Shown in pieces: positions 1,239 through 16,574 of a stretch of DNA of 64,000 nucleotides. Where the stretch lies: positions 1-64,000 of the forward strand of contig CANQXE010000009.1 of assembly GCA_947627725.1 (NCBI GenBank), written 5' to 3'. The notes under the pieces are model-generated. The model worked only from the letters and a program-made list of their open reading frames with translations. It was not told the DNA's origin and searched no databases. Numbering within the stretch: position 1 is the first letter of the stretch; every line of letters starts with the position of its first letter. Origin of the DNA: an uncultured Clostridia bacterium. GTDB taxonomy: Bacteria; Bacillota; Clostridia; Oscillospirales; Acutalibacteraceae. A program made the translations under genes and the position numbers.

Positions 1239-1287
1239 GCGTGGTTGTTTTGCGTGTTTAACACGGGGAGCAACCACGCTTTTTTTG
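1239..1287 (+). terminator. Intrinsic terminator inside a leader
   Basis: Arms GCGTGGTTG (1239-1247) and CAACCACGC (1271-1279) are followed by a run of seven or more T. The 5' arm abuts the strand GTTTTGCGTG that can pair with CACGCAAAC further down, so termination may be conditional. Confidence 0.8.
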
Positions 1288-1330
1288 TTTTGCACGCAAA
1301 CATCCCCTGCACTAAAGGGGGTGATTATAT
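1239..1330 (+). promoter_or_regulatory. Switch-like 5' leader (copy 1)
   Basis: Strand GTTTTGCGTG (1247-1256) is complementary to CACGCAAAC (1293-1301) with one bulged base. CCCCT (1304-1308) can pair with the ribosome site AGGGG (1316-1320), hiding it. The arrangement recurs at 5,936, 10,689 and 16,505. This copy also contains a true terminator, so both termination and translation could be controlled. Confidence 0.6.
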
Positions 1331-2224
1331 ATAAATAGCTTTATTTCATGGGTAGGCGGTAAAAAGGCACTTCGTGACGAAATTTTACTCCGCTTTCCTA
1401 TTGAATATACAAAGTATGTTGAAGTATTCGGCGGCGCCGGATGGGTATTGTTCCATAAGCCTAAAGGAAAGGATTATGAAGTATTCAACGATTATGATGA
1501 ACTTCTTATCAATTTGTATAGGTGTGTTCGTGACAGTCCCGAAGAACTGAAAAAAGAAATGGAATATATTCTGAATTCAAGAACAGATTTCCTGTATATG
1601 AAAGAGCTGCTCAGGGGCAAGGCTCCCATGCCGAACCCGAAAAGAGCAGCATATTTTTATGCTTTGATTCGTTTCAGTTACGGCTCAAATGCAGATGAAT
1701 ACGGTGGCAGACAAATGTCAATGTGGAATGCTTATCCGATGATAGATGCAGCCTGCAACAGACTGCAGCGTGTTATCATTGAAAACAGACCGTATGATAA
1801 ACTCATAACACAGTATGACCGCCCTGATACATTCTTCTACTGTGATCCGCCGTATTACAAAGCAGAAAACTATCCCGGCGGTAATTTCAGCAGAGCAGAT
1901 CACAAAATACTCGCAGATTTACTGTGCGGTATAAAGGGTAAATTTCTCTTATCGTACAATGACTGCGAAGAAATCAGGGAGTTATACAACAGACCGGGAA
2001 TTCTTGTTGAAAGGATTGTAAGGCTTTCAAATCTTGCTCAAAGATATGAGGGCGGAAAAGAATATCCCGAATTATTAATTTCAAATTATGACACAAGAGA
2101 ATTTTTAAATTCCTGTGTTCAGATGTCTTTATTTAAAGAATATACAAATCAACTTATCGGAGAAAGGAATATTATTTATGACAGACTCAATGAAATTCAT
2201 TCCTGTACCACAGGAGATATATGA
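1331..2224 (+). CDS. D12-class DNA adenine N6-methyltransferase
   Basis: This is a Dam-like enzyme that transfers methyl from SAM to adenine in DNA. The N-terminus carries SWVGGKKALR and the SAM-binding VEVFGGAGWVLF. The catalytic motif is CDPPYYKAENY (about residues 175-185). Length is near 297 residues, normal for the family. There is no ATG, GTG or TTG between the in-frame stop at 1322 and the conserved N-terminal motif. The codon at 1331 is ATA, which would give M-N-S-F-I-S-W, the expected family start, nine bases after GGGGG. I therefore place the start at AUA. A later in-frame TTG (1448) would cut off motif I. It probably protects element DNA from restriction. Confidence 0.85.
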   Translation: MNSFISWVGGKKALRDEILLRFPIEYTKYVEVFGGAGWVLFHKPKGKDYEVFNDYDELLINLYRCVRDSPEELKKEMEYILNSRTDFLYMKELLRGKAPMPNPKRAAYFYALIRFSYGSNADEYGGRQMSMWNAYPMIDAACNRLQRVIIENRPYDKLITQYDRPDTFFYCDPPYYKAENYPGGNFSRADHKILADLLCGIKGKFLLSYNDCEEIRELYNRPGILVERIVRLSNLAQRYEGGKEYPELLISNYDTREFLNSCVQMSLFKEYTNQLIGERNIIYDRLNEIHSCTTGDI

Positions 2225-2483
2225 CATGCTCGGATTTACGGATGAAGGCGTGTTTACCGCAGAAATCGATGACGGAAAACTTATTTTAACACAGGAATCA
2301 GGCAGAAAGTGCATACTGCCGCCCGAAGCAGATATTGACTGCGAGGACTGCTGTTTTTGCTGTAAATGCTGCGGTGAATGTATGGCAGAACAGTTTATCA
2401 GCCGTGAGGCAGATGACAAAGAATTCTGCTATGAGGTTCAGATTAACGGTATTACCGTCAGCGGTACAGATACCATTCACTAA
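2178..2483 (+). CDS. Small protein with dense cysteine cluster
   Basis: The ATG at 2178 follows AGAAAGGA and overlaps the end of the methyltransferase gene by 47 bases. The 101-residue product has an N-terminal part that resembles AbrB-partner or effector-like small proteins (VPQEIYDMLGF), then CEDCCFCCKCCGEC, eight cysteines within 14 residues. This is likely a metal or redox site. No named family is recognised. The AbrB gene follows 19 bases later, so the two may work together. Confidence 0.6.
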   Translation: MTDSMKFIPVPQEIYDMLGFTDEGVFTAEIDDGKLILTQESGRKCILPPEADIDCEDCCFCCKCCGECMAEQFISREADDKEFCYEVQINGITVSGTDTIH

Positions 2484-2502
2484 TTAAATTCGGAGGTGTA
2501 AA

Positions 2503-2898
2503 ATGAAGATTTTAAGAATACTCGGCAAGAAAGGAAGGATTACAATCCCCTTTGAAATCCGAAAGGAAGTCGGATTTAAATATAACGATGTTTTGTCTTT
2601 TGTTCAGGCAGATAATAACACAGTCATTGTCAGACGCGAAAGAATATGTGACGAAACCTGCCCTATGTATAACGAATACAAGCAGCCGGCAAATGCAAGC
2701 TCAAAGGTTACACGATTTCTTGACGGCTTGACAGCAGAAGAACAGAGAACGGCACTTGTTCACCTTTCAGTAAGATGGGCGGAAAAAGAAACTGTCGGCG
2801 CGGGAAAAGGTGCTGAAAATAATTCGGCAGCCGTGCGCGAATCGGGTGCAGGCTCAGCCTGCTGGGCAGCTCAGCAAGGCGGTGCAGCCAATGTCTGA
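2503..2898 (+). CDS. AbrB/SpoVT-family transcription regulator
   Basis: Residues 1-46 form a swapped-hairpin AbrB DNA-binding domain (LGKKGRITIPFEIRKEVGF, then DVLSFVQ). A C-D-E-T-C-P-M segment and a helical middle follow. The C-terminal 25 residues are low-complexity and coincide with a 29-base palindromic repeat that also occurs inverted in virB4. A GGAGGTG ribosome site precedes the ATG. It probably regulates ICE genes. The C-terminal extension looks acquired. Confidence 0.8.
   Translation: MKILRILGKKGRITIPFEIRKEVGFKYNDVLSFVQADNNTVIVRRERICDETCPMYNEYKQPANASSKVTRFLDGLTAEEQRTALVHLSVRWAEKETVGAGKGAENNSAAVRESGAGSACWAAQQGGAANV
2835..2863. repeat. REP-like palindromic repeat, copy A
   Basis: This 29-base block is centred on GCAGGCTCAGCCTGC, a near-perfect palindrome. 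It matches the reverse complement of 17531-17559 at 28 of 29 positions. Here it lies in the 3' end of the AbrB gene, in a reading frame different from that used in virB4. Confidence 0.7.
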
Positions 2899-3610
2899 TA
2901 TTGTACCGTTTTATGAATATTCGCTTGATAACGCAAGACATTGCAATGAGGTTGATGAATGGCGAGCAAGCCATAAAGCGAATATTGACTGTAAAAAAGC
3001 AATTGAGAATGCAATTGCAGACAATTACAAGGATAACCATTTCAATCCCGATTTCGCATCAGACATTATTGAAGAATTCGGCTTTGACCGTGTAAACTTT
3101 ATTCTGCAATATAACTTGAAACAGGCAAAGCATGACGGAAGATATTCCGAAAAAAACAAAGAATGGGGTATGGAGTTATATGCTCCAGAAAGCAATATGC
3201 GAATGGATTATTTAATCGGTTCACATCCTATTTTGCTTGACTCATTCATTGATGAGGTCAGAAGTGAATGGGATAAACTCAATCTTTGGAACAGTTCGCA
3301 CTGTATATCCAAAACAGGTTTGAATCTTGAAGGCAAGATACTTGTAATTGATCCTAAGTGTCTTGTGGATAAATACAAAACACCTGAGGATCAGCTTTTT
3401 TATGCAAGGTCGGGATTCGGATGCCGCCCTGATGCAATCGGTCGCACCGTTTCAGGATATTTTGCAAAGGACGATGAATATTATACTTGGAATCGTTCAA
3501 ACTTTATCGGAATATTGAAAGACGAATTTATTCCCGACTGGGTAAAAGAAAAATATGATTTGGAAGCTACCGCCGAGCCTGTAGAGGACGGCGGTATTTC
3601 TATGTCATAG
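2891..3610 (+). CDS. DUF3849-type ICE protein
   Basis: The 239-residue product starts at the ATG at 2891, overlapping the AbrB gene by eight bases. The body (VPFYEYSLDNAR, then SHPILLDSFIDEVR and an FYARSGFGCRP segment near residue 180) resembles DUF3849 proteins found in Clostridia conjugative elements, often beside antirestriction or methylase genes. The biochemical role is unknown. It ends GGISMS, one of the Met-containing tails seen across this element. Confidence 0.65.
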   Translation: MSDIVPFYEYSLDNARHCNEVDEWRASHKANIDCKKAIENAIADNYKDNHFNPDFASDIIEEFGFDRVNFILQYNLKQAKHDGRYSEKNKEWGMELYAPESNMRMDYLIGSHPILLDSFIDEVRSEWDKLNLWNSSHCISKTGLNLEGKILVIDPKCLVDKYKTPEDQLFYARSGFGCRPDAIGRTVSGYFAKDDEYYTWNRSNFIGILKDEFIPDWVKEKYDLEATAEPVEDGGISMS

Positions 3611-3622
3611 GGGGGTGTTGAT

Positions 3623-4195
3623 ATAGATAAGAAATATAACATTATCTATGCTGATCCCCCATGGAGATATGACCAAAAGAATGTGCAGGGTGCAGCCGAA
3701 AAGATTTATCCCACTATGTCGCTTGAAGATATCTGCAATCTGCCTGTCAATGAAATGGCTGAAAAGGATTCTCTTTTGTTCTTGTGGACTACATTTCCGA
3801 AACTGAAAGAAGGACTCAGGGTGATTGAGTCATGGGGCTTTGAATATAAAACAATCGCATTTTTATGGCTGAAACAGAACAAGTCAGGAAAAGGTTGGTT
3901 TTACGGTCTCGGCTTCTGGACAAGGGGCAATGCAGAGATTTGTCTGCTTGCAACCAAAGGACATCCGAAAAGAGAATCAAAAAGCATTCATCAGTTCATT
4001 ATCAGTCCCTTACGAAAACACAGTCAGAAACCCGATGAAACAAGGGATAAAATTGTTGAACTTGCAGGTGATTTACCTCGTGTGGAACTGTTTGCAAGAA
4101 CAAAAACTGATGGCTGGGACACTTGGGGAAATGAAGTCGAATGTGACATAAATATGGAAGAATATATGAAAGGCGGTGACTGCATTGAGAATTAA
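3623..4195 (+). CDS. MT-A70 family adenine methyltransferase
   Basis: This encodes 190 residues of the MT-A70 N6-adenine methyltransferase fold. The catalytic motif DPPW lies near the N-terminus (YADPPWRY), followed by LFLWTTFPKL, a central WFYGLGFWTRGNAE and a C-terminal VELFART. The frame has no ATG, GTG or TTG between the stop at 3608 and DPPW. ATA at 3623 sits seven bases after GGGGGG and gives M-D-K-K-Y-N-I-I-Y, the natural family start. An in-frame ATG at 3713 would remove the catalytic motif, so it cannot be the true start. It overlaps the next gene by 11 bases. This is the second DNA methylase of the element. Confidence 0.85.
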   Translation: MDKKYNIIYADPPWRYDQKNVQGAAEKIYPTMSLEDICNLPVNEMAEKDSLLFLWTTFPKLKEGLRVIESWGFEYKTIAFLWLKQNKSGKGWFYGLGFWTRGNAEICLLATKGHPKRESKSIHQFIISPLRKHSQKPDETRDKIVELAGDLPRVELFARTKTDGWDTWGNEVECDINMEEYMKGGDCIEN

Positions 4196-4892
4196 GATTT
4201 ATCAGATAAATTCTGACAGAGATATCAACAAGGTTAAATTTTCTGGCTATGACAGTTTACAGAAACTGCAGGGCAGCACAGATATTGATTCAGGCATTTA
4301 CAAAAATGTATTTTACGGTGATGTTGACGGTGACGATTTGGAAGATATATATGCTATTTTTAATATGGATAGAGTTCCGACACTTCAAGGTCACAACTTG
4401 TCGGTATCTGATGTAGTAGAAGTTATCGACTGCGACAATGAAATGTTTAAGGGTAAATGTTTCTTTTGCGATTCAATAGGATACAAAACGATTGATTTTG
4501 ATACCAGCAAATGCGAAGAAATGAACGGTTTAAAATGTATATATATCACTCCGCATCATACCCCTATTGAACTGAATCTTGAAGTCAACGAGTACAAGGT
4601 TTTAAGGGATGCAGTAAAAGGAACGATTGAAATCACCCGACCATTTGATGATGATATTGCCATTGTCGGCAATGACGAGGCAAAACTCATAGGTATGGAA
4701 GGCAACCGCAGAGTCGGCAACGGCATCTATGCAGGCCCTATGTTAATTGTCGGTGATAACGGCGGCGAAGATTTTGTTGCTTTATCACAGGAACAGGCTG
4801 ACAGATATATGGAACGGTTTGCTCAGCCCGAAGATATATCACAGGAAGAAACAGAGTCCGATGTGGGCTTTGTAATTTATGGATTTAATTAA
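4185..4892 (+). CDS. YodL/DUF3846-type ICE protein
   Basis: The 235-residue product probably starts at TTG 4185, eight bases after GGCGG, rather than the in-frame GTG at 4176 that overlaps the ribosome site. The N-terminus (IKIYQINSDRD, then GDVDGDDLEDIYAIFN) matches YodL-like domains. The C-terminal part (MEGNRRVGNGIYAGPMLIVG) resembles DUF3846. Such fusions are common near antirestriction genes in Firmicutes elements. Molecular function is not established. Confidence 0.65.
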   Translation: MRIKIYQINSDRDINKVKFSGYDSLQKLQGSTDIDSGIYKNVFYGDVDGDDLEDIYAIFNMDRVPTLQGHNLSVSDVVEVIDCDNEMFKGKCFFCDSIGYKTIDFDTSKCEEMNGLKCIYITPHHTPIELNLEVNEYKVLRDAVKGTIEITRPFDDDIAIVGNDEAKLIGMEGNRRVGNGIYAGPMLIVGDNGGEDFVALSQEQADRYMERFAQPEDISQEETESDVGFVIYGFN

Positions 4893-4912
4893 AATACAGG
4901 AGGAAATATATT

Positions 4913-5275
4913 ATGAAAATATCAGTAAGAGTACATGAAGTATACGATAACGAAAACAGCAAGGTCAAGGGCCTTGCATCAGCAGCGCTCGGCGGCCAGT
5001 TTGCAGTCAACGGAATCAAAATTGTGGAGGGCAAAAAGGGCTTGTTTGTTACAATGCCGTCAAAACTGAATGACAATGGTGAATATGTGGATATGTTTTT
5101 CCCTATTACCAAGGATTCAAGAATGCAGCTCAACAATGCTGTTTTGAAGGCTTATGAACTGAAACTCGAAGAAATTGCAAACGGCGAGGCTCAGGCAGAG
5201 GACAACGAACAGTCTGATGACGTGGGAGAAGATTTTGAAGAAATCCCGGATGACTTGGGCATAAATATGCCATAA
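4913..5275 (+). CDS. spoVG: SpoVG family RNA/DNA-binding regulator
   Basis: Residues 1-88 match SpoVG from its first strand (ISVRVHEVYDN) through LKGLASAALGGQF-like positions to the FFPITKDSR motif. An acidic tail follows and ends LGINMP, beyond the usual SpoVG length of about 95. SpoVG proteins bind nucleic acid and modulate gene expression. An element-borne copy is likely a regulator of ICE or host genes. An AGGAGG ribosome site lies ten bases before the ATG. Confidence 0.85.
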   Translation: MKISVRVHEVYDNENSKVKGLASAALGGQFAVNGIKIVEGKKGLFVTMPSKLNDNGEYVDMFFPITKDSRMQLNNAVLKAYELKLEEIANGEAQAEDNEQSDDVGEDFEEIPDDLGINMP

Positions 5276-5284
5276 AGGCTGGAC
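5272..5284 (+). repeat. ATAAARGCTGGAC motif, copy 1
   Basis: The motif ATAAAGGCTGGAC spans the stop of spoVG and leads into the 5' region of the lipoprotein gene. Related copies lie at 11106, 11235 and 12229, always between genes. Confidence 0.6.
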
Positions 5285-5329
5285 AAATTTTTGCTTTTCT
5301 GCTACGGTAAGGTCAGGAGGCAAAATATT

Positions 5330-5878
5330 ATGAAAAAGACAATATTTTTAATTATATTATCTGTATTGATAATTGCAGGATTAACAGCTTGTTCTACTGC
5401 TGAAAAGGATATTGTGGAAACAACAGAATCTACAGTAACAACAACTGTTGCCGCAGAATCAACAACAGAAAATACAACAGAAAAAGGAACAGCAAAATCC
5501 GAATCTACTACAAAGAAAAGTAATGATTCGGGTACAACAACTAAACCCGCTGAGCAAAAATCAGCAGGTCAGACCACAACAAAAAAAGTAACTACAACGC
5601 AGATGCAAACCACAACCCAACGGCAGAATACAACGAAAAAAGTTACGACCACACAGAAACCTACAACTACCAAGAAAATCTCAACAACCGAATTTGAATG
5701 GGATTGTAATGTAGACGGACATTCCTGTGAAGTCGGACCAATAGGTTGGGTAAACAGTTTTGATGAAGCAACTGATAAGGCTCTTGAATATATAGCCAAT
5801 CATGATGCTTCAGGCAATTTCAGAGTTATGCAATGCCATATGTGTGGCAAATATACTGCGGAGATTACTTTAAGATAA
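5330..5878 (+). CDS. Thr-rich lipoprotein
   Basis: The ATG at 5330 has CAGGAGG ten bases upstream. Residues 1-21 form a lipoprotein signal with lipobox LTAC, so Cys21 should be lipid-modified. About 100 residues of Thr/Lys/Ser-rich linker with repeated TTTK units follow. A compact C-terminal domain (VGWVNSFDEATDKALEYIA-type, then CHMCGKYT) has several cysteines, including Cys-x-x-Cys. Family function is not recognised. It probably displays a small domain at the cell surface of the donor. Confidence 0.75.
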   Translation: MKKTIFLIILSVLIIAGLTACSTAEKDIVETTESTVTTTVAAESTTENTTEKGTAKSESTTKKSNDSGTTTKPAEQKSAGQTTTKKVTTTQMQTTTQRQNTTKKVTTTQKPTTTKKISTTEFEWDCNVDGHSCEVGPIGWVNSFDEATDKALEYIANHDASGNFRVMQCHMCGKYTAEITLR

Positions 5879-5895
5879 CTAAATAATGTATGTTT

Positions 5896-5925
5896 AGAAC
5901 CGATAGGAATATCGGTTCTTTTTTT
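5896..5925 (+). terminator. Intrinsic terminator
   Basis: AGAACCGAT and ATCGGTTCT form a nine-base stem with a six-base loop followed by seven T. It ends the lipoprotein unit. Confidence 0.85.
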
Positions 5926-5935
5926 GTAAAAAAGT

Positions 5936-6003
5936 TTGTTTTGCGTGACAGAATCGCAAAACAACACAAGGTAATTGCCTTCTGCACGCAAAACTACAGG
6001 AGG
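5936..6003 (+). promoter_or_regulatory. Switch-like 5' leader (copy 2)
   Basis: Strand A GTTTTGCGTGACAGAA (5938-5953) can pair either with B CGCAAAAC (5955-5962; extended stem 5936-5945/5955-5964) or with C TTCTGCACGCAAAAC (5980-5994, 15 pairs with one bulge). CCTTCTG at the start of C can pair with the ribosome site CAGGAGG (5997-6003). A:B should leave the site hidden, and A:C should free it. Confidence 0.65.
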
Positions 6004-6008
6004 TAAAT

Positions 6009-9000
6009 ATGAAGATAAAAAATTGTTCTAAAAAACTCATTTCAATGCTTATGGCATTGGTTATTTGTTTATCAGCCTTTCCGATAACATCCTTTGCTGC
6101 ATATATCACGGATATGAACAGTGATGCACAGTTTGGTGTTGTCAGCGGAAGCTATGAAAAGTACGGACACGAAATGCATTATGCCAAATATGACGGCAGA
6201 ACATATCTCACATTCTGCTGTCAGTGGGGTGTAAAATCTCCTGATGGCAGCACTTATGAATACAACAAGGATTTTGTCAAATATGTAAACAGATCAAGCA
6301 GCACATATAAAGATATTGCCGATCATATTGCATTCGGATATACAATGTTGTACGGTGACGGTTTGCCAAGTTCAAAAAATGAATGGATAGCCGCCTGCTG
6401 TGCACAGCAGTATGCATGGGAAACCCTTGGTGTAAACCCTTCCCGTTCTTCTTGGAGCGATGAGTATATGAATAATACTTTATTCAATAAATGGCTTTCT
6501 GATACAGAAAGTTTAATGAATCAGTATTACAATAAATATCCTTCGTTTGACGGTTCAACCAAAAATATTAATCTCGGCAGTTCGGCAACGCTGACTGATT
6601 CAAACGGTGTGTTTAAGTATTATCCAAGCTTTAATAAATCAGTAAATGGTGTAACCTTTAAGCATACCAAAGGTGAAAACAAGCTGAATATTTCTGTTGC
6701 AGATAATTGTACAACACATTCTGTTAACTTTAATTCCGCTTCACAGAAAATCTATAAAGGTTTACCCAATGGTGATAATTACAGCAGCGAGCAGAATAAC
6801 TATGTATATTTTGAATTTGACAGCGGTAATGTTCAGGATTTAATGTTTTCAAACTATGTCGATCCCCAAACATTCAATGTTAAGGTTAATATTGAATTCG
6901 GCAACCTTAAAATCAGCAAGAGTTCAGAAGATGAAATCATTAAGAATATTCCCTTTACGGTTAAAGGTAACGGCAAGACCTACAATCTCACAACAGACGA
7001 AAAAGGTAATGCAGAACTCAAGAATATTCCTGTCGGCACTTATCAGATTTATGAAGGTGATATTCTCCGCTATGTAAAACAGGCAGTTAAGTCTGTAACT
7101 GTAACAGACGGAAATACTGCAAATGTATCTTTCAAGAACGAACTCAAAAAGGGCGATATAAAGATACTGAAGAACTCGGAAGATAAGATTGTAAAAGACT
7201 TCACTTTCAAGGTAACAGGCAGTGACGGCAGCACATACGATGCAAAGACCAATGGTAATGGCATTGCAACAATTACCGATGTGCCTGTTTATGATAGTAA
7301 CAACAAAAAGATTGTGTATACCGTTCAGGAAACCAATGTTCCTGTTCGTTATGTTACACCTGACGGACAGACTGTAACGCTTGAAGCAGATAAAACATCA
7401 ACGGTAACTTTCAATAATATATTAAAGAAATTCAGAGTTAAAGTTGTTAAGTCTGATATTGAAAAAGGCAAGGCACAGGGTGATGCAAAGCTCAGCGGTG
7501 CAAAGTACGGTATCTTTAAAGGCGAACAGCTTATTGACACCTATACAACGGATTCAAACGCATCATTCACAACAGATTATTATGTCTGCGATACGGATTG
7601 GACGATTCGTGAACTTGAATCAAGCGAGGGCTATCTCGTTAATGATGAGATTTACAAGGTCGGAGCTGATCCGAAACTCTATACGGTTGAGTTTAATACA
7701 ACAGAAAATAAGGTTGTTGAACAGGTGTTGAAAGGTAACATTGCGATTATAAAGCACACCGATGACGGCTCAACACAAATTGAAACACCTGAAAAGGGTG
7801 CAGAATTTCAGATTTATCTGAAATCGGCAGGCTCTTTTGTAAAGGCTGATAAAGACGAGAGAGATACAATCGTTTGTGATGAGGACGGATTCGCAAGTTC
7901 AAAATTACTGCCATACGGTGTTTATACCGTTCATCAAACGAAAGGCTGGGATGGGCGTGAGAAGATAAAGGACTTTGATGTCTATATCAACTCTGACGGT
8001 AAAACCTACAAATTCTTAATCAACAATTCTAATTTTGAAAGCTATATCAAGGTAGTAAAACTTGATGCCGAAACAGGCAAGCAGATTGCGTATGAGGGTG
8101 CAGGCTTTGAGATTTACGATTCAAATGGACACCGTGTAAATATGCAGTTCACCTATCCCGAAGTAACAACAATCCGCACATTTTATACCAATTCAGAGGG
8201 ATATTTAATTACACCCGAAAAACTGCCGTATGGTGATTACACGCTAAAAGAGATACAGGCTCCTTATGGCTATGTGCTTGATTCTACACCTATTCCGTTT
8301 ACCGTAACACAGGAGAACAGTTCAACAGATACAGGCGTAACTGTTGTAAAGGTTAAGGCGAGAGATATTGCACAGAAAGGTATTATTGAGATTACCAAAG
8401 AGGGCGAAATATTTTCATCGGTAGGTATGCTCGGCGGCGGATATATTGACGAGAACGGTAATGAGGTAACATTCCCAATCACTTATTCACCAATCTATGA
8501 AACAAAAAACCTCGCAAATGCAGTATTTCAAATCTACACTGCAGAGGATATTGTTACGCTTGACGGAACTGTTCGAGCAGTTAAGGGTGAGCTGGTAGAC
8601 GAGATTACAACCGCCGATAACGGCATTGCAAAATCAAAGCAGTTATATCTCGGTAAATATACCGTGATTGAGAAAACAGCACCCGACACATTCGTCAATG
8701 CAAATGAGCAGTACGATGTAGAAATCACCTATGCCGGACAGAATGTTTCCGTAACCTCAACTGCACTTTCTGTATTCAATAAAAGACAGAGGGTATCTGT
8801 TTCACTTGAAAAGATTATGGAGCAAAATGAAATATTCAGGCTTGGTAACAATAATGAGATTTTATCTGTTCAGTTCGGTATTTTTGCAGATGAAAAAATC
8901 AAGGCAGCAGACGGAAAAGTGATTCCGAAAGATGCTTTAATCACCTATGGCTACTGTAATGAAAACGGCGAATTAACTTTTAACTGTGATTTACCAATCG

Positions 9001-10322
9001 GCTGCAAGTTCTACGCAAAAGAAATGGCAACCGATAACCACTATATTCTTTCGGATACAAAACACGAATTTGACACCTATTACAAAGGTCAGGAAACGGA
9101 AGTAATCAATATCAACCTTAATAACGGTGAGCCAATTATTAATGATTTTATCTATGGCACGATTAAAGGATTAAAAGTGGATAGAGAAACCGAAAAGACA
9201 ATCGAAGGTGCTTTGTTCGGTTTATTCAAATCTGACGAAACAGAGTTTACCGAAGATAATGCAATTCTTACTGCATTATCAGACAAAGACGGTATATTCA
9301 CTTTTGAAAATATCCCTTATGGTAATTGGATTGTAAAGGAATTACAGCCTGCAAAGGATTATCTGTCAACCGATGATATTCACCATATTACTGTATCGGA
9401 AAACGAACAGATAATTCAAATCACGGCAGTCAATGACCGTATTCCTGAACTCAAAACAACGGCTACAGTTGATGGTGAAAAAGAAATTTGTGCAACAGAA
9501 ACATTTACGCTTGTTGATACGGTTGAGTATCAGCACCTTATTCCAAACAAGGAATATATGCTCAAGGGCGTGCTTATGGATAAGAAAACAGGCAAAGAGC
9601 TTATCATCAATGGTGAAACCGTAACAGCCAAAACAACATTTATTCCGTCAGAGCCGAGCGGAACTGCAACCGTTGAATTTGTATTTGATGCAAAATATAT
9701 CAAGGCTGATACGGATATTGTAGTATTTGAAAGTCTGTATAAAGACGGAAAAGAGCTTGCCGTTCACGCAGATATTAACGATGAGGGTCAGACCATAACA
9801 GTGAAAGTGCCTGAAATCAAGACAACTGCAAAAGCTAACGGCAAAAAGGAAATCACGGCAAAAGACGAAATCACCATTGACGATACAGTAAAATACACCA
9901 ACCTCACACCCGGCAAGGAATACAAAATTGTCGGCACGCTTATGGACAAATCCACAGGCAAGCCGTTCAAGATTGACGGAAAGCCTGTTACAAGCGAAAT
10001 GGTATTTACACCCGAAAAATCAAGCGGCAAGGTTACTGTTTCATTTACCTTTGATTCAACTGCAATCAAGGAAACAACTGAACTTGTAGTTTTTGAAACT
10101 CTTTATCGTGAGGGTGTGGAAATTACAGTACACGCTGATATAGATGATGAAGGTCAAACCGTAAAGATTAATATTCCTGTTCCCGAAAAGCCGTCTACAC
10201 CAAAAACAGGAGATGACAGAAACTACAGTTTTTGGATTGGACTCGGCTTTATTGCTATCGGCGGTGCAATTTCAGCAGTAATCCTCAAAATCAAGGCAAA
10301 GAAAGACGAGGATGAGGATTAA
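6009..10322 (+). CDS. VaFE/SpaA-repeat thioester adhesin, LPXTG-anchored
   Basis: The 1437-residue surface protein has a signal peptide (about 1-31). An N-terminal thioester-type domain follows, with Cys70/Cys71 in TFCCQWG and a partner glutamine in CAQQYAWE (about 133). Many CnaB/SpaA beta-sandwich repeats run from about residue 300. Two VaFE-type repeats (VVFESLYKDGKE, VVFETLYREGVE) lie before the C-terminus. The sorting signal is PKTGD plus a hydrophobic segment and a lysine tail. Such adhesins are typical of Firmicutes ICEs and probably hold donor and recipient together, with cross-links by isopeptide or thioester bonds. The class B sortase at 15757 is a plausible anchoring enzyme. The leader at 5936 suggests translational control. 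Confidence 0.9.
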   Translation: MKIKNCSKKLISMLMALVICLSAFPITSFAAYITDMNSDAQFGVVSGSYEKYGHEMHYAKYDGRTYLTFCCQWGVKSPDGSTYEYNKDFVKYVNRSSSTYKDIADHIAFGYTMLYGDGLPSSKNEWIAACCAQQYAWETLGVNPSRSSWSDEYMNNTLFNKWLSDTESLMNQYYNKYPSFDGSTKNINLGSSATLTDSNGVFKYYPSFNKSVNGVTFKHTKGENKLNISVADNCTTHSVNFNSASQKIYKGLPNGDNYSSEQNNYVYFEFDSGNVQDLMFSNYVDPQTFNVKVNIEFGNLKISKSSEDEIIKNIPFTVKGNGKTYNLTTDEKGNAELKNIPVGTYQIYEGDILRYVKQAVKSVTVTDGNTANVSFKNELKKGDIKILKNSEDKIVKDFTFKVTGSDGSTYDAKTNGNGIATITDVPVYDSNNKKIVYTVQETNVPVRYVTPDGQTVTLEADKTSTVTFNNILKKFRVKVVKSDIEKGKAQGDAKLSGAKYGIFKGEQLIDTYTTDSNASFTTDYYVCDTDWTIRELESSEGYLVNDEIYKVGADPKLYTVEFNTTENKVVEQVLKGNIAIIKHTDDGSTQIETPEKGAEFQIYLKSAGSFVKADKDERDTIVCDEDGFASSKLLPYGVYTVHQTKGWDGREKIKDFDVYINSDGKTYKFLINNSNFESYIKVVKLDAETGKQIAYEGAGFEIYDSNGHRVNMQFTYPEVTTIRTFYTNSEGYLITPEKLPYGDYTLKEIQAPYGYVLDSTPIPFTVTQENSSTDTGVTVVKVKARDIAQKGIIEITKEGEIFSSVGMLGGGYIDENGNEVTFPITYSPIYETKNLANAVFQIYTAEDIVTLDGTVRAVKGELVDEITTADNGIAKSKQLYLGKYTVIEKTAPDTFVNANEQYDVEITYAGQNVSVTSTALSVFNKRQRVSVSLEKIMEQNEIFRLGNNNEILSVQFGIFADEKIKAADGKVIPKDALITYGYCNENGELTFNCDLPIGCKFYAKEMATDNHYILSDTKHEFDTYYKGQETEVININLNNGEPIINDFIYGTIKGLKVDRETEKTIEGALFGLFKSDETEFTEDNAILTALSDKDGIFTFENIPYGNWIVKELQPAKDYLSTDDIHHITVSENEQIIQITAVNDRIPELKTTATVDGEKEICATETFTLVDTVEYQHLIPNKEYMLKGVLMDKKTGKELIINGETVTAKTTFIPSEPSGTATVEFVFDAKYIKADTDIVVFESLYKDGKELAVHADINDEGQTITVKVPEIKTTAKANGKKEITAKDEITIDDTVKYTNLTPGKEYKIVGTLMDKSTGKPFKIDGKPVTSEMVFTPEKSSGKVTVSFTFDSTAIKETTELVVFETLYREGVEITVHADIDDEGQTVKINIPVPEKPSTPKTGDDRNYSFWIGLGFIAIGGAISAVILKIKAKKDEDED

Positions 10323-10672: not shown

Positions 10673-10688
10673 AAAAATAAATTTTAAG

Positions 10689-10753
10689 GCTGTTTTGCGT
10701 GAGCAAAATGGTTTTAAAAATACCTCTATGCTCACGCACAGCTAAGGAGGTAT
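10689..10753 (+). promoter_or_regulatory. Switch-like 5' leader (copy 3)
   Basis: Strand A (GCTG at 10689-10692 and TGCGTGAGCA at 10696-10705) pairs with C TGCTCACGCACAGC (10729-10742) over 14 pairs. Alternatively TTTTGC pairs with GCAAAA around a GTGA loop. ATACCTC (10720-10726) can pair with GAGGTAT (10747-10753), covering the ribosome site. Confidence 0.65.
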
Positions 10754-11280: not shown

Positions 11281-11293
11281 AGGAGGCTTGGAT

Positions 11294-11596
11294 ATGTCAG
11301 TTATAGGCAAACTGTTTTGGAACGATCACTTTATAAGCACTGTTAATGATCATTCGGAAAAAGAGAAACTGCTCGTTCAATATAATGAGATGAGCACAAA
11401 AATTACTGCTGATATGAGCTCGGAAAACAGAGATCTTTTAGATGAAATGCTATCTACGAAAAATGCAATGCACTGTTTTGATGTGGAAGATGCTTTTTGT
11501 CTGGGATTTAAAAGTGCAGTAAGAATATTATTTGAATCATATAAAGATTACTTTGATAACACAAAAGAAGGTAATTATAACGGTTTGCAAAAGTAA
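11294..11596 (+). CDS. DUF6809-like small protein, paralog 1
   Basis: The product is about 100 residues. ATG 11294 is chosen over the in-frame TTG at 11288 because AGGAGG (11281-11286) then has seven-base spacing. The N-terminus GKLFWNDHF and the helical C-terminus ending AFCLGFKSAVRIL are shared with the next two genes. These are alpha-helical proteins of unknown function with the layout of DUF6809 family members. Three in a row suggests local duplication and divergence. Confidence 0.6.
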   Translation: MSVIGKLFWNDHFISTVNDHSEKEKLLVQYNEMSTKITADMSSENRDLLDEMLSTKNAMHCFDVEDAFCLGFKSAVRILFESYKDYFDNTKEGNYNGLQK

Positions 11597-11637
11597 TATC
11601 TTTTCCGAACAAAAAACAAAACGGAGATTAATTTAAT

Positions 11638-11925
11638 ATGGAATCATTGATAGGCAAATTATTATGGAACGATGAATTTATGCTCGCTCTGAATGATAAT
11701 TCTGAAGAGTTAAGGATTAATGCAGAGATAAAAGAACTCTATGATAAAATCTTAATTGAACTTGGCCCTTATGAAAAAAGGATGTTTAAGAGCCTAATAG
11801 ATTTGAGCAATGCTGCAAACAGCTTTGAGAATGAGCGTTCCTTTTTTCTTGGATTTAAAGCAGGGATAAAAATACTGTCTGAAGCAGAATTCAATTATCC
11901 CAATCCTTTAAAAGAAGGTGATTGA
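11638..11925 (+). CDS. DUF6809-like small protein, paralog 2
   Basis: The 95-residue product is closest to paralog 1: IGKLLWNDEFM at the N-terminus and FFLGFKAGIKILSEAE at the C-terminus. Its ribosome site GGAG is upstream of the ATG. The next gene begins at or just across its stop codon. Function is unknown. Confidence 0.6.
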   Translation: MESLIGKLLWNDEFMLALNDNSEELRINAEIKELYDKILIELGPYEKRMFKSLIDLSNAANSFENERSFFLGFKAGIKILSEAEFNYPNPLKEGD

Positions 11926-11926
11926 T

Positions 11927-12220
11927 ATAGCAAAACAAAGTTTTTGCAGTGATGTTTTTAATGGCAGATTGTTCCCATTTGAAATGATTTGTAAAAATAA
12001 CGAGAATTTTGAAAAAACCCGAGAAAAACACAAAGAAGCTGAAAACCGACTGTTTGATGCATTGAATCAAGAACAGACTTTACTTTATGAAAAAGCACAA
12101 GACTGTTACACAGAATGTATAAATTCGCAGATAGAACAGGCATTTAAAATGGGATTAAAATATGCCTTTGAAATGCTTAAAGATTTAAAGGACATTGAAT
12201 TAATAAAAGAATTCAAATAA
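11927..12220 (+). CDS. DUF6809-like small protein, paralog 3, AUA start
   Basis: This is the third paralog (FCSDVFNGRLFPFEM, then EQAFKMGLKYAFEML). The in-frame GTG at 11918 overlaps the AAGGTG ribosome site and is an unlikely start. ATA at 11927 lies six bases after AAGGTG and gives M-A-K-Q-S-F, aligning with the short N-termini of such proteins. I place the start at AUA, with GTG 11918 as the alternative. About 97 residues long, it is mostly helical and of unknown function. Confidence 0.5.
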   Translation: MAKQSFCSDVFNGRLFPFEMICKNNENFEKTREKHKEAENRLFDALNQEQTLLYEKAQDCYTECINSQIEQAFKMGLKYAFEMLKDLKDIELIKEFK

Positions 12221-12228
12221 AATTTATT

Positions 12229-12344
12229 ATAAAAGCTGGACTTTCGCACTAAAGCGTGATATATGTGTTGATGTAAGAAATGCATGCTCCCTTGCTGCGA
12301 AACAATTTAATTGGGGTAACCGCTGAGTGTATACTCGGCGGTTA
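12229..12344 (+). promoter_or_regulatory. Structured intergenic leader (copy B)
   Basis: It resembles 11106-11234: ATAAAAGCTGGACTTT, then GTGATATATGTGTTG, CTCCCTTGC, GGGGTAACCGC and a hairpin TAACCGCTGAGT/ACTCGGCGGTTA (12317-12344) followed by a weak T-rich tail. It precedes the virB6-like gene. The shared order of blocks suggests a common RNA fold. Confidence 0.55.
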
Positions 12345-12366
12345 TTTCATTTTGGAGGTGGTTAAA

Positions 12367-13293
12367 ATTTTTGATTGGTTAGGCGATATTGTATCAGGAC
12401 TCGGTGATGCAATAGGAAACGCCTTTGGAAGTATTTCGGATAAATTGATTGATGGAATATTAAACCGAATTATTCAGTGGATATTTACGGTTATCTATGA
12501 CGGAATCGCTGAATTTTTTACAATGATAAGCGGACTCGGTGTTGAAATCTTTACACTTGATTGGGTAAATGCAGTCGTTAAGTTGTTTTCTCTGTTCGGC
12601 TGGACTTTGTTTGTTGTCGGGCTTGTGGTATCCGCATTTGACTTGGCTATTGAATATCAGAACGGCAGAGCAAGCATACACGGAACTGCAATAAACTGGA
12701 TTAAGGGATTTATGGCGGTATCACTGTTTACCATAACACCGATAGAGTTATATAAATTCTGTGTGACTTTGCAGAATACTTTATCAAAAGATTTAACAAG
12801 AATCTTTGCATCGCAGCAAGGAACAACACTCGGCGAGGTTGCCTTGAAAACACTACAGTTGGCATTTTTCAAGGATGGTGCAATCGTACAAGCCGGATTG
12901 TTTGAACTTGTGGCTATAATCGCACTCGGTTACTGTGTTGTAAAAATATTTTTTGACAATATAAAACGAGGTGGAATCCTGCTTGTTCAGATCGCAGTCG
13001 GCAGTCTGTATATGTTCTCAATTCCAAGGGGCTACGGAGAAGGATTTACACAGTGGATGAAACAAGTAATCGCACTTTGTCTGACTGCATTTTTGCAGAC
13101 AACTTTGTTATTTCTCGGATTGCTCACTTGGACAGACAACATGCTCCTTGCAATCGGAATTATGATGGCAGCATCGGAAGTGCCGAGAATTGCAGAGAGA
13201 TTCGGTCTTGATACAAGCGTTAAATTTAATATGATGAGTGCTGTTCACATGACTTCTACTGCTGTGAATCTTGCAAAAAATATTGCAAAATAA
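12367..13293 (+). CDS. VirB6/TrbL-like mating-channel membrane protein
   Basis: The 308-residue integral membrane protein begins with an amphipathic GLGDAIGNAFGSI helix. About six hydrophobic segments follow, including LFGWTLFVVGLVVSAFDLAI and a C-terminal LTAFLQTTLLFLGLLTW. This is the TrbL/VirB6 layout for the inner-membrane channel of type IV secretion. GGAGG ends at 12358, and ATT at 12367 lies eight bases further, reading M-F-D-W-L-G. The in-frame GTG at 12358 overlaps the ribosome site. AUU start is preferred, GTG 12358 possible. Confidence 0.8.
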   Translation: MFDWLGDIVSGLGDAIGNAFGSISDKLIDGILNRIIQWIFTVIYDGIAEFFTMISGLGVEIFTLDWVNAVVKLFSLFGWTLFVVGLVVSAFDLAIEYQNGRASIHGTAINWIKGFMAVSLFTITPIELYKFCVTLQNTLSKDLTRIFASQQGTTLGEVALKTLQLAFFKDGAIVQAGLFELVAIIALGYCVVKIFFDNIKRGGILLVQIAVGSLYMFSIPRGYGEGFTQWMKQVIALCLTAFLQTTLLFLGLLTWTDNMLLAIGIMMAASEVPRIAERFGLDTSVKFNMMSAVHMTSTAVNLAKNIAK

Positions 13294-13305
13294 GGGGATG
13301 TAATT

Positions 13306-13890
13306 ATGAAAGTCAAATTAGAAATTGAATTTGAAATGGAAACTGAGCTTGAAGAATCGGATATAACCAAAACAAAAAATGAATTGTTAAACGGTATAAG
13401 AATCGAGGACAGCGATGTTGTTGACGGATTCGAAATCACAACCGATTTTGATGACTGCGACAACACATCGGATTTCTTTATAAAGCCACATTCGGCAAAA
13501 ATCATTTCAGTAGAAGCTCCTGAATTCAGCAAGGAAGAATTATGTGTAGAAGATATCGAAGTGAATGATAATTATGATGGTATATCGTGTCAGTTTAAGA
13601 CTTGTTTTGATGTTGATAAAAAACTCGGAACAAATATAAATGACAATTGCGATTCGTGGGTGAATTTCTATGCTGAATACTTCCCCGAAAGCAGAGAGCT
13701 GAATTGCGAGTATTATGTGCATAAGCCGAATAGTTTTGAAAACCATTCATATATTCCGACAGAGGAAGAAAGATGCCTTATTATTTTTGCAATGGAAGAA
13801 TACTGTCAGGATAACTATGGTGAAAATATTTTGGAATTTATTCAGAGTGAACAAGAAGATGAAGCAATGAATATGGGAGGAATTAAATGA
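13306..13890 (+). CDS. Hypothetical acidic ICE protein
   Basis: The 194-residue, strongly acidic soluble protein has no recognised domain. It ends with an acidic segment plus AMNMGGIK, one of the Met-containing tails of the element. Its ATG follows GGGGATG and its stop overlaps the next start by four bases (ATGA). It lies between virB6 and HU, a site usually used for variable cargo. Confidence 0.55.
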   Translation: MKVKLEIEFEMETELEESDITKTKNELLNGIRIEDSDVVDGFEITTDFDDCDNTSDFFIKPHSAKIISVEAPEFSKEELCVEDIEVNDNYDGISCQFKTCFDVDKKLGTNINDNCDSWVNFYAEYFPESRELNCEYYVHKPNSFENHSYIPTEEERCLIIFAMEEYCQDNYGENILEFIQSEQEDEAMNMGGIK

Positions 13891-14468
13891 CTTATGCAGG
13901 AAATATAAATGAAATCAATCAGATTATTGTATCTGATCCGAGCTATGAAAAGGGTGTGTGGTGCAGATACGAAAATGATAATCTTAATGCAAAAAATTGG
14001 AATATTAAAATCGAAGTTAAAAAATATAATGAGAATATTGACGGCTATGATATAGCCGGCTTGGATTTTCAAATTTTACTTTCACACCCATCTGTTCGAT
14101 GTGACTTTACAGAAAATGGTATACGCTATCCAAAATCAAGTGAAATTAAGGAATATACTATTGGCGCTGATACTGCTTGCGTATCTTTTGGAATAAATGA
14201 CATTGCTGATAAAATACGCAGTGAAGTTGACGAATGGCAGCCAAGCACTTGTTTAAAAACACTTGCTGACGGTGAGTTTGGAGTAGTATATGAAGGTACA
14301 AGAGCAAACAGTGATAAGGTACATTTTATAGCTATTGCCGGATTTTTTGATAAGGATACGGGATATTCTGAGGAAGATTTGGTGAAATATTTTGAAAAGA
14401 ATTTTGCAGTTAAAAATTTATTCCCTGTTATGTCCGAGAGTGAAGAACTGACACTTGGCGGAATGTAA
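13887..14468 (+). CDS. Hypothetical ICE protein
   Basis: The 193-residue protein is coupled to the previous gene. The opening (QIIVSDPSYEKGVWCRYE) and the later GEFGVVYEG resemble domains of small proteins that follow 'DPCY/DPSY' motifs in Firmicutes elements, but I cannot assign a family. It ends SEELTLGGM. It is probably the last gene of this transcription unit, because a promoter starts at once downstream. Confidence 0.55.
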   Translation: MTYAGNINEINQIIVSDPSYEKGVWCRYENDNLNAKNWNIKIEVKKYNENIDGYDIAGLDFQILLSHPSVRCDFTENGIRYPKSSEIKEYTIGADTACVSFGINDIADKIRSEVDEWQPSTCLKTLADGEFGVVYEGTRANSDKVHFIAIAGFFDKDTGYSEEDLVKYFEKNFAVKNLFPVMSESEELTLGGM

Positions 14469-14497
14469 TTGAAAAATGGCAGCATTTGTGTTATTAT
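14469..14497 (+). promoter_or_regulatory. Sigma-A-type promoter for the HU gene
   Basis: TTGAAA (14469-14474) and TATTAT (14492-14497) are 17 bases apart. The HU start codon lies 39 bases downstream. Confidence 0.6.
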
Positions 14498-14535
14498 GAT
14501 TTTGATAAATTCAAACACACGAAAGGAAGTTTATT

Positions 14536-14808
14536 ATGAACAAAAATGAACTCGTTGCATCAGTTGCAGAGAAAGCTGAAATTTCAAAGAAGGATGCAGA
14601 AGCAGCAGTAAAGGCTGTTACAGAAGCTATTACCGAAGCACTTGCAGAGGGTGACAAGGTAGCTCTTGTTGGTTTTGGTACATTTTCTGTTAAAGAGCGT
14701 GCAGCTCGCACAGGCATCAACCCAAGAACAAAGGAAGCAGTTGAAATCCCTGCCGCAAAGGTTCCTGCATTCAAGGCTGGCGCTGCTCTTAAAGACGCAG
14801 TTAAATAA
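14536..14808 (+). CDS. hup: HU family DNA-bending protein
   Basis: The 90-residue product is full length for [22 protein letters not shown] opens the family, [20 protein letters not shown] is the DNA-binding arm, and the end is [14 protein letters not shown]. It compacts and bends DNA. On an ICE it may assist recombination, transfer initiation or silencing. It has its own promoter and terminator, so it is an independent unit inserted among transfer genes. Confidence 0.95.
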
Positions 14809-14825
14809 TTAAGTAAAATTACCTG

Positions 14826-14859
14826 AACACCTATCAACTCCGATAGGTGTTATTTTTTT
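14826..14859 (+). terminator. Intrinsic terminator after HU
   Basis: AACACCTATC and GATAGGTGTT form a ten-base stem with a six-base loop followed by a T-run. Confidence 0.85.
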
Positions 14860-14881
14860 ACCCTAAAACAAGGAGGAAAAA

Positions 14882-15220
14882 GTGAACAAACAATTTATCT
14901 ATCCGCAGAATATGAGAGCATCTGCTACGCTGTGGCTTTGGAGTCTGAAAGACTTTGCCATTATTGTAGTCGGTGCTCTTTTTTCTGCAATGGTGCTTGC
15001 CACCACACGAATATTAATCCCTGCGGTGCTTACTGCTGCCTTCGCATTTTTAAGTATCCGCAATGATGAAACAACCATACTTGACTTCATTAAATATGCA
15101 GTCAGGTATTTCATATCCACACAGCAGTATTTCGAGTGGGGTCTGAAAAGCAAACCCTTAACAAAACAGAAAAAGGAGGTGTCGGCAAATGTTCAGGTTC
15201 AGCAAAAAGAAAAAGAATAA
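14882..15220 (+). CDS. prgI: PrgI family conjugal transfer protein
   Basis: The 112-residue product uses GTG, with AAGGAGG upstream. Two hydrophobic segments follow an N-terminal YPQNMR region (FAIIVVGALFSAMVLATTRI and LIPAVLTAAFAFLSI). The C-terminus reads FIKYAVRYFISTQQYFEWG. This matches PrgI proteins that sit next to VirB4 in Gram-positive type IV secretion and act as VirB3-like inner-membrane subunits. Its end overlaps the next gene by 32 bases. Confidence 0.85.
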   Translation: MNKQFIYPQNMRASATLWLWSLKDFAIIVVGALFSAMVLATTRILIPAVLTAAFAFLSIRNDETTILDFIKYAVRYFISTQQYFEWGLKSKPLTKQKKEVSANVQVQQKEKE

Positions 15221-15788
15221 AAATACTGTTCAGGATCTTATTGGTATTTTGCCATTTTTCAACAAGGGCTTAAAGACGAAAAACGGAGAACTTGTATATT
15301 TTATTATCAGCCCTACAAATATATCTGTGCTGTCAAATGAGAATATTCAGACAAAGATATGGCACTTGATGCAGGTTCTCTCTGCACAGCCGAATATTGA
15401 AATCACTTGTATGGACTCTTGCGAAAGGTTTGATGATAATAAATCCTTTATGCTTGAAAGATTCAATGAGGAAACCAATTTGTCGGTAAAAGAATGTATA
15501 AAAAAAGATATAGATTATCTTGATAACATTCAGATTGAAATGTCAACTGCAAGGCAGTTTATGTTTTCCGTTCGTTTCAGAAAAGAAAAGGAAGAACAGA
15601 TTTTCAATCAGGTAAACAAGGTTGAAAAGGCTATTGCAGAACAGGGCTTTGAGGTGAAAAGAGCAAAGAAAGATGATATAAAAAGATTTCTTGCAATATA
15701 CTTTGGTGCATCCATGCAGGGTGAATTAATCCCGGATGTAGACGGAGGTGACTGCTTTGAAGAAGAAATCAAAAAGGCGGTGGCTTAA
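15189..15788 (+). CDS. VirB4 N-terminal-like/TrsD-type transfer protein
   Basis: The 199-residue soluble protein begins FRFSKKKKNKN, is ordered IGILPFFNKGL then QTKIWHLMQVL, and has a helical middle with LERFNEETNLSVKE. Proteins of this size between PrgI and VirB4 in Clostridia elements resemble the N-terminal domain of VirB4/TrsD and probably help dock VirB4. That assignment is by position and general resemblance. It overlaps prgI upstream and the sortase gene downstream. Confidence 0.6.
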   Translation: MFRFSKKKKNKNTVQDLIGILPFFNKGLKTKNGELVYFIISPTNISVLSNENIQTKIWHLMQVLSAQPNIEITCMDSCERFDDNKSFMLERFNEETNLSVKECIKKDIDYLDNIQIEMSTARQFMFSVRFRKEKEEQIFNQVNKVEKAIAEQGFEVKRAKKDDIKRFLAIYFGASMQGELIPDVDGGDCFEEEIKKAVA

Positions 15789-16491
15789 TTTTATGATTAC
15801 AATTTGCTTTATTATCTTCGCAGTAGTCCTCTGCTATCTGATATATAACTTTAATATTGATTCACAGGATCAGAAACAGTTTGACGATATGGCACAGACA
15901 ATTACTATTGAAGAAGATAATGATGACAGTAACGATAGTGACAGCGGAATAACCGATTTAATAAACAGGAATTCCGATTGTATCGGCTGGCTAAGAATCA
16001 GCGGAACAAAGATTGATTATCCTGTTATGCAGACAAAGGATAATCCGCAGTATTATCTGCGCCGTGATTTCAATAAGCAGTATTCCTATTTAGGTACACC
16101 GTTTATGGACTCAAGGTGTGATGCAAACTACGATAACAACCTTATCGTTTACGGACACAATATGCGTGACGGAAAAATGTTTGCAGACCTTTTGAAATAC
16201 AGAGAACACGCTTATTTCAAAGAGCATAACCTCATTCATTTTATTACGCCGAATGGTGTTCAGGAATATGAGGTTGTTACAGTCTGCAAGGTTAAGAATG
16301 ATGATGAATGGTACAATTACACTACCCAAAAGGATAAAGAATCATTCAACAATTTAATATCCCATATTAAAAATAAATCCCTATACTTCACTCAGGATGA
16401 GATACAGTATGGGGATTATTTTTTAACCCTTTCTACTTGTGAATATTCACAAACAAACGGAAGATTAATCGTTATAGCAAAAAGAAGATAA
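15757..16491 (+). CDS. srtB: Class B sortase
   Basis: The 244-residue transpeptidase has an N-terminal membrane anchor (FMITICFIIFAVVLCYLIY). The sortase core begins WLRISGTKIDYPVMQ. The catalytic triad is visible: His in VYGHNM, Cys in LSTCEY and Arg in NGRLIVI. It should attach LPXTG-like proteins to the wall, most likely the adhesin at 6009. TTG 15757 is the start that fits GGAGG spacing, since the in-frame GTG 15748 overlaps that site. No terminator follows before the virB4 leader. Confidence 0.9.
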   Translation: MKKKSKRRWLNFMITICFIIFAVVLCYLIYNFNIDSQDQKQFDDMAQTITIEEDNDDSNDSDSGITDLINRNSDCIGWLRISGTKIDYPVMQTKDNPQYYLRRDFNKQYSYLGTPFMDSRCDANYDNNLIVYGHNMRDGKMFADLLKYREHAYFKEHNLIHFITPNGVQEYEVVTVCKVKNDDEWYNYTTQKDKESFNNLISHIKNKSLYFTQDEIQYGDYFLTLSTCEYSQTNGRLIVIAKRR

Positions 16492-16504
16492 CCTATTAAA
16501 ATGA

Positions 16505-16574
16505 GTTGTTTTGCGGCAGAACGCAAAACAACTACAGAGTAGGATTATTGCCTTCTGTCGCAAAAGACAGGAGG
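16505..16574 (+). promoter_or_regulatory. Switch-like 5' leader (copy 4)
   Basis: GTTGTTTTGCG (16505-16515) and CGCAAAACAAC (16522-16532) make an 11-base hairpin. TTTTGCGGCAGAA can alternatively pair with TTCTGTCGCAAAA (16553-16565). CCTTCTGTC (16551-16559) and GACAGGAGG (16566-16574) form a nine-base hairpin around GCAAAA that buries the ribosome site. Confidence 0.7.

Follow-up and report, generated by a model that had tools for sequence, protein, structure and literature searches.

Competing RNA helices before genes of a conjugative element from gut Clostridia suggest a switch on translation

Control over the expression of transfer genes is mostly attributed to promoters and repressors and, more recently, to antitermination. 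Here we describe four intergenic leaders in a conjugative element carried by a 64,000-nucleotide stretch of DNA (the window: positions 1 to 64,000 of contig CANQXE010000009.1, assembly GCA_947627725.1) from an uncultured bacterium of the Clostridia (Oscillospirales, Acutalibacteraceae). The element encodes VirB4, TrbL, a sortase, the coupling protein of a type IV secretion system, a MobL relaxase and a Toprim protein. Each leader can form three helices: a first hairpin (HP1), in which strand A pairs with its neighbour A′; a hairpin (HP2), in which an anti-SD strand covers the Shine-Dalgarno sequence (SD); and an alternative helix (ALT), which joins the 5′ arm of HP1, and in most cases some of its loop too, to the SD-covering strand or its neighbour. 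We propose, with a probability of roughly two in three, that the leader is an RNA switch that lies between cistrons and acts in cis to control translation of the gene that follows.

If so, conjugation would gain a further level of control, at translation, through a covarying RNA cassette that stands in front of several genes of the same element. Several genes of a single gut-bacterial mobile element stand behind the leaders, most of them for DNA transfer, and the cassette before VirB4 occurs in elements of several gut Clostridia. It is short and has no evident ligand core, and the predictions it makes are sharp.

Results

Three helices in each of four leaders

A preliminary description of this DNA had proposed four leaders in which one strand could pair with its neighbour or, alternatively, with a later strand, and had quoted an SD/anti-SD pair for each. 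All four leaders and all the quoted pairs are present in the sequence, and HP1 and ALT can form in every one.

Leader 1, before an adenine methylase (Dam) gene
1239..1286, + strand: HP1 1239-1279 and U-run 1280-1286 (folding z-score -6.1; U-rich tract)
1237..1312, + strand: ALT, 1237-1257 with 1292-1312 (targeted duplex fold, -21.9 kcal/mol, 18 pairs)
1301..1323, + strand: HP2, CATCCCCT 1301-1308 with AGGGGGTG 1316-1323, SD hidden

Leader 2, before an adhesin gene
5936..5964, + strand: HP1, 5936-5945 with 5955-5964
5938..5994, + strand: ALT, 5938-5947 with 5985-5994, plus 5949-5953 with 5980-5984
5975..6006, + strand: HP2, 5975-5984 with 5997-6006, SD hidden

Leader 3, before a DUF3852 gene
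10682..10719, + strand: HP1, 10682-10698 with 10703-10719
10692..10742, + strand: ALT, 10696-10705 with 10729-10738 (10 bp), extended by 10692-10694 with 10740-10742
10720..10753, + strand: HP2, ATACCTC 10720-10726 with GAGGTAT 10747-10753

Leader 4, before the VirB4 gene
16504..16533, + strand: HP1, 16504-16515 with 16522-16533
16509..16565, + strand: ALT, 16509-16521 with 16553-16565 (13 bp, one G-U)
16548..16577, + strand: HP2, 16548-16559 with 16566-16577, SD hidden

The layout varies in detail. HP1 of leader 1 is followed by a U-run and looks terminator-like; leaders 2-4 have no U-run. The second complement of A lies 5′ of the anti-SD in leader 1, where ALT continues into the anti-SD and occupies its CCCC, and 3′ of the anti-SD in leaders 2-4. 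In leaders 2 and 4 ALT overlaps the anti-SD in part; in leader 3 the two are adjacent. Leaders 2 and 4 closely resemble each other in their 3′ halves and contain perfect inverted repeats of 10-12 bp.

These structures exceed what chance would give in several respects. Within the window GTTTTGCG occurs nine times against 2.3 expected, and the pattern TTTTGCG-N(2-20)-GCAAAA matches five times against 0.23 expected (leaders 2 and 4 on both strands, leader 3 on one). Folding z-scores of leaders 1 to 4 are -6.1, -3.3, -4.9 and -9.7, respectively. A descriptor was built from an SD, a start codon and three competing helices, with no sequence motif otherwise; it ranked leader 4 first in the window (score 89), leader 2 second (76) and leader 3 fourth (72), while scores in 60 dinucleotide-shuffled windows went no higher than 67. 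The descriptor did not pick up leader 1 in the window, probably because its gene has no ATG, GTG or TTG at the right distance and its strands come in a different order. Across the window and 95 fetched loci, a set that takes in overlapping and copied loci, scores of at least 80 were reached at 22 sites against 0.5 per shuffled copy; these 22 include copies, the leader of locus L095 twice (through two starts) and at least one non-leader (L060). At score 70 the counts were 43 against 4.0 in shuffled sequence, and at score 50 the excess was small (306 against 246).

Third place in the window went to a site at 22242, whose score of 74 lies above all shuffled windows. Nearby, at 22126-22226, the inverted repeats AGCAGCATAC/GTATGCTGCT and CAGCATAC/GTATGCTG stand upstream of the genes for a 138-residue protein and the MobL relaxase. 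Despite the descriptor score, this repeat group is likely an origin of transfer or an operator.

The alternative helix covaries

If ALT is important, the variable HP1 loop is expected to match the anti-SD side strand of its own leader and not those of other leaders. Strands were therefore swapped among 28 hand-picked leaders (19 before VirB4, 4 before DUF3852, 2 before the adhesin and 3 before Dam). Near-copies were left out, as were partial or truncated leaders (L023/L026, L042/L052, L099, L102), the region upstream of the DUF3852 gene of L053 and the Dam leader of L064 (ALT duplex -33.3). ALT duplexes averaged -23.5 kcal/mol with the cognate partner and -15.2 kcal/mol with swapped partners, and none of 20,000 permutations did as well; the same preference was seen in 22 representatives. 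It also held for the part of ALT formed by the HP1 loop alone (-11.4 versus -7.3), for HP2 (-12.6 versus -10.2) and for HP1 (-17.4 versus -13.0), each with 0 of 20,000 permutations as good. A control region, strand A against the stretch from SD to start, showed no effect (-3.4 versus -3.5; 11,321 of 20,000 permutations as good).

Compensatory change was then counted in 14 distinct VirB4-leader rows, collected with a model holding the HP1 pairs only. Six ALT pairs changed on both sides (shuffle mean 3.1; 13 of 500 shuffles reach 6), as did 16 individual cells (shuffle mean 5.3; 0 of 500 reach 16). When the ALT partner was slid by 1-3 columns, paired cells fell from 85% to 35-55%. HP1 is 96% paired in these rows, and its variation runs mostly from U-A to U-G. 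The preliminary description had named the absence of compensatory changes as what would speak against its idea; the ALT helix contains them. Taken together, the comparisons support helices that are conserved, mutually exclusive and covarying, as judged from sequence.

How the switch may operate

The relative stability of the folds depends on how much of the leader has been made. Among 25 leaders, of which the DUF3852 leader of L029 has its start set 7 nt too far 3′, the OFF fold (HP1 plus HP2) is the more stable in the finished RNA of 21, and ALT is the more stable in 18 when the RNA ends before the SD. The position of the leaders is also informative. In 18 of the 28 leaders an upstream frame of at least 60 codons ends in a TAA that lies 12-27 nt ahead of strand A. 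So short a gap can hardly accommodate a promoter, and would place the device mostly between two genes of one message. Sixteen of the 28 have a U-rich tract (5 or more T among 8) behind HP1, window leaders 2-4 not being among them, and where the tract occurs HP1 may also terminate transcription. In the leaders drawn, the second strand of ALT lies 3′ of HP1 and is transcribed after HP1 and any U-run; ALT thus could not decide termination in the usual way, and its target must be the SD.

We infer the following scheme, including the ON/OFF effect on translation, the OFF default and the terminator activity of HP1. The strands would be ordered A, A′, C (the anti-SD with the second complement of A) and D (the SD). 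In the OFF state A:A′ (HP1) and C:D (HP2) would form, blocking ribosome binding; in the ON state A, usually with part of the HP1 loop, would pair with C (ALT) and set D free. ON could be reached only if A were kept from A′, or pulled off it, before transcription arrives at the SD. Where a U-rich tract follows it, HP1 could additionally stop transcription inside the operon. OFF would be the default, since HP1 emerges ahead of the other helices and most finished RNAs are more stable in the OFF fold. Candidates for what prevents HP1 are a protein or RNA acting on it, the state or pausing of the polymerase, or mere chance folding.

A more specific version, in which the translation gate senses the state of RNA polymerase so that several conjugation genes become translatable only on properly initiated operon transcripts, is the boldest reading, drawn by analogy and in our estimate decidedly improbable. 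On transcripts made by ordinary or spurious polymerase HP1 would form immediately and translation would not follow. A polymerase that started at the element's own promoter and is modified, antiterminated or pausing would instead hold A open until C emerges, giving ALT and a free SD. A profile search of the whole genome with PF02357 (NusG) returned one match, on another contig, and no second NusG paralogue.

The leader recurs in related elements

VirB4 homologues were collected at 80 loci from GTDB genomes plus further genomes of the order, and the region upstream of the start was read. The count was made on 102 loci, for which the best single tblastn segment covers at least 480 residues from near the N-terminus. 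A leader with diverged letters precedes VirB4 in 23 of these 102 homologues with a readable N-terminus, a figure that takes 28 regex positives and removes five judged false by eye (L083, L084, L086, L089, L094), and that includes copies (L155/L048, L160/L072, L157/L098, L046/L047, L051/L053/L093). L100 and L106 also carry the leader and fall outside the 102. Most often the leader reads AATCAGTCGTTTTGC-loop-GCARRACGGCTGATT, frequently followed by a U-run, and then CCTTCTG...GCAAAGCGGC...AGGAGG. Many leaderless homologues start directly 3′ of the upstream gene. Host labels of the VirB4 loci include Ruminococcus, Blautia, Merdimmobilis, Anaeromassilibacillus and other Clostridia. On the VirB4 tree the leader is scattered, with 11 label changes against a shuffled mean of 25.2 (the five false positives still labelled positive).

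The same layout precedes DUF3852 genes in L029, L031 and L036, the adhesin gene in L029, and Dam genes in L227, L064 and L241 (the second Dam locus of the genome of L227); most other Dam relatives read upstream have no leader. At the DUF3852 gene of L031 the SD is altered, and the anti-SD is altered along with it. This recurrence of the three-helix layout, with the compensating changes in ALT, lends support to the earlier suggestion of one control device that could hide or expose the ribosome site of several transfer genes.

Some loci depart from the common form. Upstream of 2334 in L099 and of 10001 in L102, a VirB4 leader has its entire A strand swapped for other sequence, as if by insertion or recombination within HP1. 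In L042 (2059-2138) and L052 (9796-9879) an HP1-type terminator hairpin stands at least about 100 nt before VirB4, with extra sequence between.

A model, R1, matched in 72 of 295 genomes of the order at E <= 0.01. Thirty matched loci were fetched; those read lie upstream of VirB4 (L109-L113) and Dam (L126), together with the middle stretch of L109-L119, where several matches resemble plain hairpins or terminators. At E <= 1e-5, 6 of 391 genomes of the class matched, L109 again being one; the other five (L146-L150) have no recognisable SD layout in the stretch read, where reversed matches could escape. Because R1 misses window leaders 1-3 at E <= 1, it undercounts the family, and its finding of a single leader per element elsewhere counts for little as negative evidence. 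No VirB4 relatives were found in IMG/VR by peptide patterns or in plasmids at E <= 1e-100. IMG/VR holds 46 Dam-like loci, and the two read upstream (L179, L182) have no leader.

Genes behind the leaders

The preliminary description placed an adenine methylase, an adhesin and virB4 behind the leaders, and domain matches bear this out.

1331..2224, + strand: D12 adenine methylase (Dam gene) behind leader 1; PF02086, 6.5e-27 on the frame from 1334
6009..10322, + strand: SpaA-domain surface protein (adhesin) behind leader 2; PF17802, 2.8e-81, in 7 stretches; PF18202
10756..11094, + strand: DUF3852 protein behind leader 3; PF12963, 2.4e-48
16579..18471, + strand: VirB4-type ATPase behind leader 4; PF19044, AAA_10

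NF045975 also matches the VirB4-type ATPase at 2e-94, yet under its family cut-off. The frame of the Dam gene was read by eye, and its start codon is probably a non-canonical ATA at 1331. Adenine methylase genes (D12 and MT-A70), this one at window 1331, another at window 3623 and those of L241, L232 and L081, combine a strong SD with no in-frame ATG, GTG or TTG, and by the same visual reading initiation seems to occur at AUA, AUU or AUC. Farther along the window, 47321-53367 encodes a serine recombinase, next to it a protein of the choline-kinase type and, at a greater distance, a BCCT transporter; the recombinase probably lies close to the right end of the element.

Weighing the switch against other explanations

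Several results weigh against a switch. The 28 leaders were hand-picked, partly for visible pairing, and the own partner ranks best in only 14 of them; among the 28 possible partners it ranks 13th for the L031 VirB4 leader, 11th for the window VirB4 leader and for L036, 8th for L227 Dam, 7th for L029 DUF3852 and 6th for window Dam. HP1 shows a double change in one cell only, which 38 of 500 shuffles reach. RNAalifold on the first raw MAFFT alignment gave only five pairs, a failure we attribute to misalignment. Most VirB4 homologues examined have no leader, many close relatives among them, and the second full VirB4 copy in the window's own genome (97% identical) has none either. Given this last absence and the scatter on the tree, the leader appears to behave as a cassette subject to gain, loss or exchange. 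The energy barriers are high as well: path estimates, usable for 24 of the 25 leaders, give 6-25 kcal/mol for HP1 to ALT in nascent RNA and 9-37 kcal/mol for OFF to ON in the full RNA. Unaided refolding would often be too slow, which suggests that the decision falls during transcription or with the help of a bound factor.

The barriers, and the bias of 21 of 25 finished RNAs towards OFF, would also suit a static dampener and insulator, in which HP1 ends or shields the upstream message, HP2 keeps translation low and ALT is a folding intermediate, with no switching. The U-rich tract in 16 of 28 leaders fits this reading, as do the intra-operon terminators known in Gram-positive conjugation operons, so far as the account in PMC8955417 goes. 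It gives ALT no role, however. Yet of the two helices counted, ALT and HP1, it is ALT that shows the more compensatory change, and the sequence of the HP1 loop, unpaired within HP1, fits the anti-SD side strand. On balance we hold the static reading to be unlikely.

Less likely again, and improbable in our estimate, is the idea that the folds mainly present a landing site for an RNA-binding protein or small RNA encoded by the element. A SpoVG-family protein is encoded within it at 4913-5275 (PF04026, 7e-25), and PMC4959528 describes SpoVG of Listeria, in its title, as a conserved RNA-binding protein. A candidate RNA could come from an intergenic region that has a complement of strand A at 46958-46968, outside the leaders, and strand A is the most constant part of the leader. 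That constancy is equally explained by its two partners, however, and the reversed pattern, used as a control, likewise has two matches in the genome. SpoVG homologues are found near VirB4 both with the leader (for example L043, L080, L051, L098) and without it (for example L033, L035, L041, L045); as SpoVG genes also accompany leaderless elements, SpoVG is unsupported as a discriminating trans factor. The intergenic region itself lies near the serine recombinase and has, within 46825-46968, an Rfam pemK RNA match and behind it CGCAAAACAAC. These 11 letters are all complementary to strand A of leaders 1 and 4, and 10 of the 11 to that of leader 2.

Least probable of all, to the point of being remote, is that the leaders work as DNA, their inverted repeats being bound by a protein as operators or as processing sites and their RNA folds a by-product. 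The perfect 10-12 bp inverted repeats of leaders 2 and 4 and the other inverted repeat group before relaxase genes in the same element would agree with this, but loop-to-anti-SD matching, G-U pairs and a fixed position at the SD make sense for RNA and not for duplex DNA. A switch on translation of the next gene remains the reading we prefer.

Comparison with known systems

The leaders had been described as belonging to no known named family, and this agrees with Rfam 15, where cmscan gave no gathering-score match over the leaders of the window or of L029, L031, L043, L044 and L046; a known RNA family was rejected on this basis for the sequences scanned. At E values up to 10, sub-threshold matches overlap or touch leaders (for example L20_leader at 1177-1291, with 24.9 bits where 58.7 are required), and these are taken as chance. 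No description of such leaders appeared among the papers listed in literature searches, and the term DUF3852 was absent among the matches listed.

Gram-positive conjugation operons are described as having internal terminators and processive antitermination, with conAn of pLS20 and canT of Tn916 as processive antiterminators (PMC8955417; PMC11658703). As far as these accounts go, the likeness lies in terminators inside long operons and in RNA-based control; the difference is that conAn and canT act by processive antitermination, whereas the second strand of ALT comes after HP1 and the target would be the SD. The same strand order, with the second strand of ALT 3′ of HP1 in the leaders drawn, does not fit a classical transcription antiterminator.

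Translational riboswitches also use mutually exclusive folds that act on the SD. The leaders differ from them in that the 14 VirB4-leader rows contain no conserved unpaired core fit for a ligand pocket: columns conserved in 90% of the rows belong nearly all to strand A, its partners and the start codon, the exceptions being the single columns 36, 74 and 85. With no conserved ligand-binding core outside simple helices, the anatomy is not that of a metabolite riboswitch.

The translational attenuators of ermC and cat have four strands, with the SD hidden in 3:4 and freed by an alternative pairing; there, a ribosome stalled in the leader peptide frees strand 2 for pairing with strand 3. The leaders share the four strands, the SD hidden in 3:4 and an alternative pairing that would free it, but here strands 1 and 3 make the freeing pairing, and no conserved leader peptide is seen. 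A start codon at most 30 nt before or at strand A, with a frame running past A, occurs in 9 of 28 leaders (ATG in 4), and an ATG before strand A is present in L046-L048; none of the nine candidate starts has an SD-like word just upstream. Lacking a conserved translated leader peptide over strand 1, the leaders are not attenuators of the ermC type. An SD helix in competition with an alternative helix, both conserved, was nevertheless found, and would place them in the general kind of cis-acting, SD-hiding RNA switches. Among these they appear to resemble a translational attenuator in operation, set apart by the 1:3 freeing pairing and by doing without a leader peptide.

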